A model generated the notes under the pieces. The model saw only the letters and a program-made list of their open reading frames with translations. It did not search any database and had not been told where the DNA came from. Shown here piece by piece: positions 13,746-47,327 of a stretch of 64,000 nt of DNA (positions within the stretch are counted from its first letter, which is position 1; every line of letters starts with the position of its first letter). The translations under genes were made by a program, and so were the position numbers. This DNA is from Candidatus Binatia bacterium (lineage in GTDB: Bacteria; Desulfobacterota; Binatia; UBA9968; JAJDTQ01). The DNA lies in the NCBI GenBank assembly GCA_951813575.1, contig OX638375.1, positions 1,279,001 through 1,343,000 on the forward strand, read 5' to 3'.

Positions 13746-15398
13746 GTGGCCGAGGAACAATTGTATGGCGACAACCCCATCGCCCAGCGGCAGACCGACC
13801 AGTACAAGCGCGAATACGTGCACAGCTTCGTCCGGAAGTGGGACGAGCTCATCGACTGGGACGCCAGAGCCGCCAGCGAAGGGGACTTTTTCATCAACAT
13901 CCTGAAGGAGCGCGGCGTCGAGCGCGTGCTGGACGTGGCCACCGGAACGGGGTTCCACTCCATCCGGCTCCTGAAGGCGGGGTTCGACGTCACCAGCGTG
14001 GACGGCAGCCCCGAAATGCTGGCTCAAGCCTTCGAGAACGCCAGGGAGCAGGGCTTCATCATGAAGACCCTCCACGCCGACTGGCGGTGGTTGAGCCGGG
14101 ACGTCCATACCCAATACGACGCAGTCATCTGCCTGGGAAACTCGCTGACCCATCTGTTCTCGGAGCAGGATCGCCGGAAGGCCCTCGCCGAGTTCTACTC
14201 GGTGCTGGAACATGATGGCGTCCTGGTCCTGGACCAACGGAACTACGACGACATCCTCGACGATGGGTTCACCTCCAAGCACATCTACTACTACTGCGGC
14301 GACAACGTCAGCGCCGCGCCCGAGTACGTGGACGAAGGGCTGGCCCGGTTCCGGTACGAGTTTCCGGACAACTCGGTTTTCCACCTGAACATGTTCCCCC
14401 TGCGCAAGGACTATGTCCGGAAGCTCATGGGCGAGGTCGGTTTCCAGCAGGTGAAGACCTTCGCCGACTTCCAGGAGAGCCACCGCGTGGAAGACCCGGA
14501 CTTCTTCATCCACGTGGCGGAGAAGCTCTACAAGAACGAGGAACGGCCCGCCAAGATCACGTTGGGAGCCAGCTATTCCGAAACGGTGGAGACGGCACGA
14601 GACTACTACAACAGCAACGACGCCGACCGCTTCTATGCCACCGTGTGGGGCGGCGAAGACATCCACGTCGGCCTCTACGAAGGCGACGGGGATACCATCT
14701 TCGACGCCAGCCGGCGGACGGTGAGAAGAATGGCGTCCATGATCGACGGGCTGGAGTCGACCACCCGCGTGCTGGACATCGGCTCCGGGTACGGCGGCTC
14801 GGCCCGATACCTGGTCGACAACTACGGCTGCCACGTCGGATGTCTGAACCTGAGCGAGGTGCAGAACGCCCGGAACCGCGACCTCAACGGCCGTAAGAGG
14901 TGCTCTCTGGCCATCAACGTGGTGGACGGAAGTTTCGAGCAAATACCCATGCCCGACGACAGCGTGGACGTGGTGTGGTCGCAGGATGCCATCCTGCACA
15001 GCGGCAACCGGCGGCAGGTGTTCGAGGAGGTCGACCGGGTCCTTGCCAAGGGCGGACAGTTCATCTTCACCGATCCCATGCAACGCGAGGATTGCCCCGC
15101 GGAGGTGCTGCAGCCCATCCTGGACCGCATTCACCTGGATTCCCTGGGGTCGGTCCCTCAATACCGGACCATGCTCTCGGGCCTGGGTTTCGAGGAACTG
15201 GAGTTTGTCGACCTCACGCCGCAGCTCGCCAACCACTACGCGCGGGTCCTCGACGAGGTGCAGGCCAATCACTGGGACCTGCTCAAGGTGTGCAGCGCCG
15301 AGTACATCGACCGGATGAAGACCGGCCTGCAGCACTGGGTGGACGGCGGCAACGGAGGCCATCTCCAATGGGGAATTCTCCATTTCCGGAAAGTGTGA
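13746..15398 (+). CDS. Fused glycine/sarcosine N-methyltransferase - dimethylglycine N-methyltransferase
   Basis: A 550-residue protein with two SAM-dependent methyltransferase domains. Domain 1 (about 1-260) is glycine N-methyltransferase-like, with SAM motif VLDVATGTG at 61-69 and acidic motif VTSVDGSPEM. Domain 2 (about 275-550) is sarcosine/dimethylglycine methyltransferase-like, with RVLDIGSGYGG near 340, VVWSQDAILHS and LQHWVDGG. Together they could convert glycine to betaine with three SAM. A GTG start is chosen because AAAGGAGG lies 7 bases before it; an upstream TTG overlaps that site. Such a GSMT-SDMT fusion is known from Actinopolyspora halophila. The next gene repeats domain 2. 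The expected role is osmoprotection. Confidence 0.85.
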   Translation: MAEEQLYGDNPIAQRQTDQYKREYVHSFVRKWDELIDWDARAASEGDFFINILKERGVERVLDVATGTGFHSIRLLKAGFDVTSVDGSPEMLAQAFENAREQGFIMKTLHADWRWLSRDVHTQYDAVICLGNSLTHLFSEQDRRKALAEFYSVLEHDGVLVLDQRNYDDILDDGFTSKHIYYYCGDNVSAAPEYVDEGLARFRYEFPDNSVFHLNMFPLRKDYVRKLMGEVGFQQVKTFADFQESHRVEDPDFFIHVAEKLYKNEERPAKITLGASYSETVETARDYYNSNDADRFYATVWGGEDIHVGLYEGDGDTIFDASRRTVRRMASMIDGLESTTRVLDIGSGYGGSARYLVDNYGCHVGCLNLSEVQNARNRDLNGRKRCSLAINVVDGSFEQIPMPDDSVDVVWSQDAILHSGNRRQVFEEVDRVLAKGGQFIFTDPMQREDCPAEVLQPILDRIHLDSLGSVPQYRTMLSGLGFEELEFVDLTPQLANHYARVLDEVQANHWDLLKVCSAEYIDRMKTGLQHWVDGGNGGHLQWGILHFRKV

Positions 15399-45075: not shown

Positions 45076-45324
45076 ATGGGCCTGGCATACGATGATCTGA
45101 TCGAGCCGGTGATCGTCCGGCAGGAATCCAAGAGCCGCTTCTACTGCATGTGCGGGCGGACCCGGAACTTTCCGTTCTGCGACGGGTCGCACAAGGTGAC
45201 GACCATCACGCCGCGCGAGATCACGGTGGACGAACCCCGGACCATGGCCATCTGCGCGTGCTGGCGGTCGAAGACGCGGCCTTACTGCGACGGAACGCAC
45301 GGCAAGCTGGTGGCGCCGAAGTAG
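45076..45324 (+). CDS. Double CDGSH iron-sulfur protein
   Basis: An 82-residue protein with two CDGSH-type [2Fe-2S] motifs: CMCGRTRNFPFCDGSH (24-39) and CACWRSKTRPYCDGTH (60-75). Each binds a 3Cys-1His cluster, acting in electron transfer or iron-sulfur storage. The ATG follows GGGAGGAA. It heads a short run with a cupin protein 36 bases later and the selenocysteine GST candidate 49 bases after that, suggesting one redox-related transcript. Confidence 0.9.
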   Translation: MGLAYDDLIEPVIVRQESKSRFYCMCGRTRNFPFCDGSHKVTTITPREITVDEPRTMAICACWRSKTRPYCDGTHGKLVAPK

Positions 45325-45360: not shown

Positions 45361-45747
45361 ATGTACGAAGTGAAGAACCCCATCACGGAGGCCAAGGCCA
45401 ACCCGGATATACGCCATCTTTCGTTGTGGCGCACGGACCTGACCTACTTCTGGACCATCAACTGCGAAGAGAACATGCAGGACGACATGCACTACCACGA
45501 GAACGACGACCACATCTTCATGGTCCTCGAGGGAGAGTGCACGGTGCGGACGCCGGAGAACGAGTACGTCCTGAAGCCCCACGACATGATACTGCTGGAA
45601 TCGGGCCAGCCCTACCAGCTCTGCAACACTGGAGAGGGGCGCATGCTGCTGTTCGGGGCGGGCAACTCGCAAGTCGACGGCAAGCCGCGCACGCGGGTGC
45701 CGAGGCGGCCCAGCCACATTCCGGTGAAGCAGCCCATCATCGCGTAG
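45361..45747 (+). CDS. Small cupin-domain protein
   Basis: A 128-residue single-domain cupin. Motif 1 is MHYHENDDHIFMVLEGECTVRTPE with two His and a Glu/Asp set for one metal. Motif 2 is less well kept (ESGQPYQLCNTGEG), where the usual His is absent, so metal binding may be weak. No signal peptide. Function unknown: it could be a sensor, isomerase or dioxygenase-like protein. It lies between the CDGSH protein and the GST. Confidence 0.8.
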   Translation: MYEVKNPITEAKANPDIRHLSLWRTDLTYFWTINCEENMQDDMHYHENDDHIFMVLEGECTVRTPENEYVLKPHDMILLESGQPYQLCNTGEGRMLLFGAGNSQVDGKPRTRVPRRPSHIPVKQPIIA

Positions 45748-45796
45748 AAATCTGCTCCGCGCACACGCGGGGGCGCAAACTTCGAAGGAGGAAGAC

Positions 45797-46360
45797 ATGT
45801 TGCGACTACTGTCCTACGGCCCTTGACCGTACGCCCACAGGACAAGGCTTGTCCTGGCGGAAAAAGACATCCCCTACGACCTGGTGGAGTGCGATCTCCA
45901 GAACAAGTCCGAGGAGCTCGTCACCCTCAACCCCTACGGCAAGGTGCCGGTGCTGGTGGACGGCGACACGGTGATCTACGAATCCGCCGTCATCAACGAG
46001 TACCTGGACGAGAAGTTTCCCGAGGTGCCGCTGATGCCCAACGACCTGGCGCAGCGGGCGCAGGTGCGGATCTGGATCGACTTCTGCAACACCCGGCTCC
46101 AGGCCGCCGCCGGCAACATCCGGCACGACCACGAGGTCGAGAAGAACAGGAAGCGCCTGGCGGAGCACCTGGCGACGCTGGACGAGCAGATGGCCGGCAA
46201 AGACTTCATCGTCGACGACTATTCGCTGGCGGACATCACCTATGTCCCGTTCTTCACCCGGAAAGACCACTACAAGGTGTCCATCGGTGATGAGTTCCCC
46301 AACGTGAAGCGCTGGCGCGAGAGACTGCTGGAGCGGCCGAAGGTGAAGTCGACGCCGTAG
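45797..46360 (+). CDS. Glutathione S-transferase with in-frame TGA read as selenocysteine (Sec10)
   Basis: A 187-residue GST. The thioredoxin-fold N-terminal domain is MLRLLSYGP-U-PYAHRTRLVL, followed by the cis-Pro/GSH-binding stretch LNPYGKVPVLVDGDTVIYESAVINEYL, then an all-helical C-terminal domain with VDDYSLADITYVPF. The single TGA (45824-45826) falls at the catalytic Cys of the Cys-Pro-Tyr/Phe motif used by omega- and SspA-like GSTs. The frame is intact before and after it. AAGGAGG lies 7 bases before the ATG. A SECIS-like hairpin begins 11 bases after the TGA (45838-45856). A Sec would suit thiol-transferase or peroxide chemistry. The alternative, a nonsense mutation, is less likely given the hairpin and no other lesion. 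Confidence 0.82.
45838..45856 (+). promoter_or_regulatory. Bacterial SECIS-like element
   Basis: CAGGACA-AGGCT-TGTCCTG, a 7-bp perfect stem (9 bp if the loop closes fully) with apical loop AGGCU. It starts 11 nt after the TGA, the same distance as the fdhF minimal SECIS, whose loop is AGGUCU. It would recruit SelB to recode UGA as selenocysteine while encoding His-Arg-Thr-Arg-Leu-Val-Leu. Confidence 0.75.
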
Positions 46361-46482: not shown

Positions 46483-47327
46483 GAGCGGGGCTGGGGAATG
46501 ACCCTTTCGAGGACGCCGAGCTGGCGCAAAAGGTGGCCGGGCTTCAGGCGCTGCTGAGAGAGATGGGCCAGGCAGTGGTCTGTTTCTCTGGCGGCGTGGA
46601 CTCCGGCTACCTGCTGGCCGAGGCCGTGAACGCCCTCGGCGACAACGCTCTGGCGCTCACCGCGGTCTCCCCGAGCCTCGCGCCCGAGGAGGGCGCCGAC
46701 GCCCGGAGCCTGGCCGAGAGCATCGGCGCGAGGCATCGGCTCATCGACACCTACGAGCTGGACGACCCGCGCTACGCCGCCAACCCCGTCAACCGCTGCT
46801 ACTTCTGCAAGACCGAGCTCTACGGCAAGGCCATCGAGGAGGCCGCCTCCCTGGGCATCGCCCACGTGCTGGACGGCTTCAACGTGGACGACCGCGGCGA
46901 CCACCGCCCGGGCCGCAAGGCCGCCCGCGAGCGCGGCGTCCGCTCGCCGCTGGACGAGCTGGGCTTCACCAAGGCCGACATCCGCGAAGCGGCCCGGCGC
47001 ATGGGTCTACGGGTCTGGGACAAGCCGGCACTGGCCTGCCTTTCCAGCCGCTTCCCCTACGGGACCGCCATCACTCCGGAGAAGCTCACCCGGGTGAACC
47101 GCTGCGAGCGCGTGCTGCAGGAGCTCGGCTTCCGCGTCTACCGGGTCCGCTACCATGACGAACTGGCGCGCATCGAGGTGGCCCCGGACGAGTTCGACAA
47201 GCTGTTCCGGCCAGGCGTCCGCGAGGAGATCCTCCGCCGTTTCAAGGACGCCGGCTTCACCTACGTCAGCATCGACCTGCAAGGCTACCGCACGGGTTCC
47301 CTCAACGAGACCGTGAAGCAGCAGTAG
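46467..47327 (+). CDS. larE: ATP-dependent sacrificial sulfur transferase LarE
   Basis: About 286 residues. The PP-loop SGGVDSGYLL (41-50) adenylates the pyridinium carboxylate substrate during synthesis of the nickel-pincer cofactor of lactate racemase. Other LarE landmarks are NPVNRCYFCKTELY, VLDGFNVDD, GRKAARERGVRSPL and ALACLSSRFPYGT, whose Cys is the likely sulfur donor. The start is uncertain because the palindromic repeat supplies the upstream codons. The GTG at 46467 is preferred; a GTG at 46374 or ATG at 46386 would add repeat-encoded residues. No larA, larB or larC is in the window, so the cofactor's target enzyme must lie elsewhere. Confidence 0.85.
   Translation: MRGVDGAGLGNDPFEDAELAQKVAGLQALLREMGQAVVCFSGGVDSGYLLAEAVNALGDNALALTAVSPSLAPEEGADARSLAESIGARHRLIDTYELDDPRYAANPVNRCYFCKTELYGKAIEEAASLGIAHVLDGFNVDDRGDHRPGRKAARERGVRSPLDELGFTKADIREAARRMGLRVWDKPALACLSSRFPYGTAITPEKLTRVNRCERVLQELGFRVYRVRYHDELARIEVAPDEFDKLFRPGVREEILRRFKDAGFTYVSIDLQGYRTGSLNETVKQQ

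Follow-up and report, generated by a model that had tools for sequence, protein, structure and literature searches.

Introduction

GST-like selenoproteins were first reported in 2005, when the Sargasso Sea survey gave four sequences assigned to COG0625 (PMC1088965), and the GOS survey of 2008 holds 12 such sequences (PMC2398784). Published examples include PPR62222.1 and MEK9676863.1. Subsequent reviews also list them (PMC9312934, PMC13188914), and a 2026 review of prokaryotic selenoproteins describes the functions of the GST-like and similar members as largely uncharacterized (PMC13188914). The published proteins (COG0625/PF13409) combine a GST domain, an in-frame UGA aligned to the Cys of homologues and a downstream hairpin of the bacterial SECIS type; the gene discussed here shares these features, the likeness being set at the level of COG and Pfam. 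Our literature search, which was incomplete in coverage, turned up no paper describing selenoproteins from Binatota or Binatia.

Proteins that resemble the product of this gene in fold and sequence but are without selenocysteine (Sec) include the SspA homologues and the omega and tau GSTs. Omega-class GSTs have a single catalytic Cys that forms a mixed disulfide with glutathione, and we take this Cys to occupy the position aligned to the Sec considered below.

Here we analyze a gene from a 64,000-nucleotide stretch of a Candidatus Binatia genome (the window; coordinates without a contig label refer to it). We conclude, with a probability of about 0.95, that positions 45797-46360 encode a GST-fold selenoprotein with a predicted Sec at residue 10, which supports the selenoprotein reading given in a preliminary description of the sequence. 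Because GST-like selenoproteins have been known for two decades, the gene is an added member of a described family rather than the first of its sort, an assignment that is well supported.

The gene and its reading frame

The features of the gene, all on the + strand, are as follows.

45785..45791, +: Shine-Dalgarno-like AAGGAGG, read directly, 5 bases 5' of the ATG
45797..46360, +: Sec-containing GST-like gene of 187 residues with TGA as codon 10 (translation; GST_N and GST_C matches in Pfam; relatives keep the frame open but for the TGA)
45824..45826, +: in-frame TGA read as Sec, residue 10, at the catalytic position of a U-P-Y motif (TGA in every readable orthologue of the order, Cys codons in cyanobacterial homologues)
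45838..45856, +: bacterial SECIS-like hairpin (fold, synonymous conservation, covariation)

Translation of the frame gives a lone TGA and an ordinary stop at 46358-46360, and purine-rich motifs resembling AAGGAGG also lie 5' of most homologues. Both GST domains exceed their Pfam cut-offs, placing the protein in the GST superfamily: GST_N_2 is matched at residues 10-72 (4e-22; 78.9 bits against a cut-off of 25) and GST_C at residues 112-181 (5e-13; 49.5 bits against 20.7). The preliminary description, which had the gene intact apart from one TGA, with its ribosome binding site and C-terminal GST domain preserved, is thus confirmed on each of these points, as is its prediction that a standard gene caller would begin at GTG 45884: with translation table 11, the frame yields an ORF of 158 aa that opens only at that codon and spans 45884-46360.

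Conservation of the in-frame TGA

The TGA lies at the catalytic position of the GST N-terminal domain in the context SYGP-U-PYAHRTR. Our search sample comprised 39 genomes, namely the window's own and 38 relatives, and each of the nine genomes of the genus has the gene with one TGA and no more, as do almost all genomes of the order. All 30 loci that we extracted from the order of the window (Candidatus Binatia, phylum Binatota) have the TGA at the identical codon, so it is not a chance occurrence; on named contigs the loci of the order belong to Candidatus Binatia and to MAGs filed as Deltaproteobacteria. The 30 loci are 55-93% identical to the window protein, every readable orthologue of the order, down to about 54% identity, has the TGA, the surrounding residues are conserved as protein (S-Y-x-x-U-P-Y-A-H-R-T-R), and no Cys form was found among the readable orthologues of the order's clade.

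Cys forms occur elsewhere. Alignments to named loci that reach position 10 have TGA in 33 cases, TGT or TGC in 46 and a Ser codon in 3, a tally of alignments to which a few loci contributed two. The Cys forms that share the CPYAHRTRLV motif are cyanobacterial (Nostoc, Calothrix, Anabaena, Pseudanabaena); they match the window protein over its full length at 41-46% identity but have Cys, mostly encoded by TGT, where the window protein has Sec. The earlier proposals that the TGA replaces the catalytic Cys, and that homologues with either Cys or TGA at position 10 might be sought, are therefore both borne out: orthologues retain the UGA, and more distant relatives have Cys at the aligned position.

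Among 297 genomes sampled across the phylum, only the window's class gave strong matches, and TGA forms were limited to the window's order. Searches of viral contigs returned nothing beyond a 21-residue fragment match, and searches of plasmid records returned distant GSTs only, at <60% identity. The Sec forms do not make one group in our tree, but this tree was rooted arbitrarily at its midpoint and has poor support at its deep forks. The 'nonSec' label of its tip L080 is an artefact, as L080 carries TGA at the codon 10 position, and so do L081 and L107.

Several further TGA-containing genes were observed. A second, distant clade (L096, L110, L121; motif UP[YF]AMRTRIV), 38-40% identical to the window protein, has the TGA at the same codon and a hairpin of the same type. 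Three more GST-like genes (G023:C207:1665-2252, G019:C51:4244-4831 and G009:C221:3221-3802) are 34-36% identical, each with a single internal TGA. A scan of the window for further coding-like TGA sites yielded no second convincing selenoprotein. The top other site, at 15396, looks like an ordinary stop followed by the next gene; it and 16266 (both +) end two similar frames (LQWGxLHFRK) in TGA with open coding-like sequence after it, and both are probably normal stops.

The downstream hairpin

The hairpin begins 11 nt past the TGA and consists of an eight-pair stem (45838-45845 with 45849-45856) closed by the apical loop GGC (45846-45848), the loop being GGC or GGA among the homologues. This agrees with the bacterial selenoprotein hairpin as worded in the 2005 survey, which lies directly after the UGA and has an apical loop that is small and contains G (PMC1088965). 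As a single sequence it folds only moderately better than its shuffles (z -0.7 to -2.2). Across homologues, codons 11-20 are the same codon at a frequency of 0.79 versus 0.40 expected, the remainder of the gene being near expectation; synonymous conservation peaks at codons 14-20, and both Arg codons are AGG in 20 of 20 sequences. The stem pairs in 96% of cells across 22 distinct sequences, pairing collapses in all slid versions of the stem, and none of 500 shuffles matches the covariation score. Double-sided (compensatory) changes affect 3 pairs in 9 cells; the covariation rests on these few changes because the hairpin is nearly invariant in the order, and several of them come from the distant second clade. 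The hairpin whose presence in relatives the preliminary description had proposed checking is hence found there, compensatory changes included.

Selenocysteine machinery of the host

The genome, a single contig of 4.21 Mb, encodes tRNA-Sec, SelA, SelB and SelD, so that selA, selB, selC and selD, by which the preliminary description had suggested checking its reading, are all present. At 73.1 bits the tRNA-Sec exceeds the gathering score (47), and its anticodon is TCA in the gene (UCA); SelA, SelB and SelD score 517, 378 and 374 bits in the genome search, and their genes form one run on one strand (G000:C1:2675632-2679699; L009, L010, L048). SelD carries an in-frame TGA of its own near the N-terminus, MSMEAIRLTQEVKAAG-U-AAKLGPADL (AAG-U-AAKLG), at a well-known Sec position of this protein, which independently indicates that the host reads UGA as Sec. 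Among the 39 genomes examined, many of them draft MAGs, SelA is above cut-off in 37 and tRNA-Sec in 28.

Fold, active site and small thiol

The AlphaFold model has a GST fold (pLDDT 86.1) in which residue 10 lies directly ahead of a helix at 11-22. In the PDB the model most closely resembles tau GSTs and SspA homologues, one of the latter having glutathione bound, and a profile search of the PDB matched SspA homologues (closest: 4qq7 and 6v91) and omega-1 and tau GSTs. K49, V50, P51, E62 and S63, which we take to fall in the glutathione site of GSTs, are invariant in 30 of 30 sequences.

We infer that SelB and Sec-tRNA(UCA) would recognize the hairpin just past the UGA and so place Sec at residue 10. 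This residue is at the N-terminal end of helix 1, the site of the catalytic Cys in omega-type GSTs. The selenolate would most likely attack the mixed disulfide of glutathione (or of a gamma-glutamyl-thiol) or a similar electrophile and would be released by a small thiol, as in the omega-class thiol transferases. The role most likely to follow is that of a thiol-dependent oxidoreductase of the omega-GST type; thiol-transferase chemistry as such is somewhat favored, and a Sec at residue 10 would suit either a thiol transferase or a peroxide/dehydroascorbate reductase.

Glutathione is an uncertain candidate for the small thiol, since a search for the E. coli-type (usual bacterial) glutathione synthetase found none in the genome, despite the presence of a relative of plant-type glutamate-cysteine ligase. 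This relative and a YbdK-type carboxylate-amine ligase lie at G000:C1:1730971-1731828 and 3124914-3125756 (L133, L134). A search with PF08886 (proteobacterial-type GshA) gave no match in the genome, nor in any control genome. The lack of a match to this synthetase is the ground for a further reading, which we consider unlikely, of a Binatota-specific branch of Sec-GSTs with Sec fixed and no Cys form that uses a thiol other than glutathione, such as gamma-glutamylcysteine.

Alternative explanations

A recent nonsense mutation would likewise appear as one in-frame stop in an otherwise intact gene, and a misread TGC or TGT would be another way to arrive at a TGA here. Such a pseudogene or sequencing error is scarcely credible given that all readable orthologues, from many genera, share the TGA and that the rest of the protein is strongly conserved; misreading in particular is excluded in practice by the recurrence of the TGA in independent genomes. 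The TGA might instead be a true stop with a restart at GTG 45884, the frame that a gene caller would report, yet the 158-residue product would lack two elements of the thioredoxin fold, strand 1 and the catalytic helix, the codons flanking the TGA are conserved as protein, and a ribosome binding site precedes the ATG, all of which makes a restart highly improbable. We rejected these readings because of the order-wide TGA, the sel genes, the cyanobacterial Cys homologues and the conserved hairpin.

That the protein is a Sec-containing regulator associated with RNA polymerase, akin to SspA, and not an enzyme would fit its closest PDB sequence matches, 4qq7 and 6v91, and its top NCBIfam match, SspA. 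The latter match, however, reaches 109.9 bits against an equivalog cut-off of 314, and the site corresponding to the His in the PHP motif of SspA is occupied by E, Q, D, A, G or K and in no case by H. The invariant glutathione-site residues and a conserved Sec, which points to catalysis, further argue against a regulator, and we regard it as improbable next to a GST-fold selenoenzyme.

Genomic neighborhood

Three genes adjoin the Sec-GST gene in the window.

45076..45324, +: double CDGSH iron-sulfur protein, upstream (two stretches of Pfam zf-CDGSH; adjacent within the genus only)
45361..45747, +: small cupin protein, upstream (Pfam Cupin_2; adjacent within the genus only)
46515..47327, +: downstream gene for LarE, an ATP-dependent sacrificial sulfur transferase (325.8 bits with NCBIfam TIGR00268, whose cut-off is 150; neighbor in the genus)

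The preliminary description had placed the gene in a small redox cluster with the double CDGSH protein and the cupin. Pfam confirms these neighbors, but they do not make a stable functional unit: in our synteny comparison, the CDGSH, cupin, Sec-GST and LarE genes adjoin in most genomes of the genus and not beyond it, so the arrangement says little on function, and a function deduced from the CDGSH/cupin neighborhood was dropped. Elsewhere in the order, many members have the Sec-GST gene placed after genes for an ABC transporter of the peptide type (SBP_bac_5, OppB/OppC-like), and several have a DUF3105 gene following it. The gap from the transporter genes to the Sec-GST is short in one part of the order (L066, L067, L068, L069, L081, L082 and others).

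Implications

Throughout an entire order of uncultured bacteria, standard gene callers shorten the Sec-GST gene and so remove its active site. A Sec fixed throughout that order, together with Cys-containing relatives in cyanobacteria, provides a clean comparison with which to study the need for selenium in an enzyme of the GST fold.
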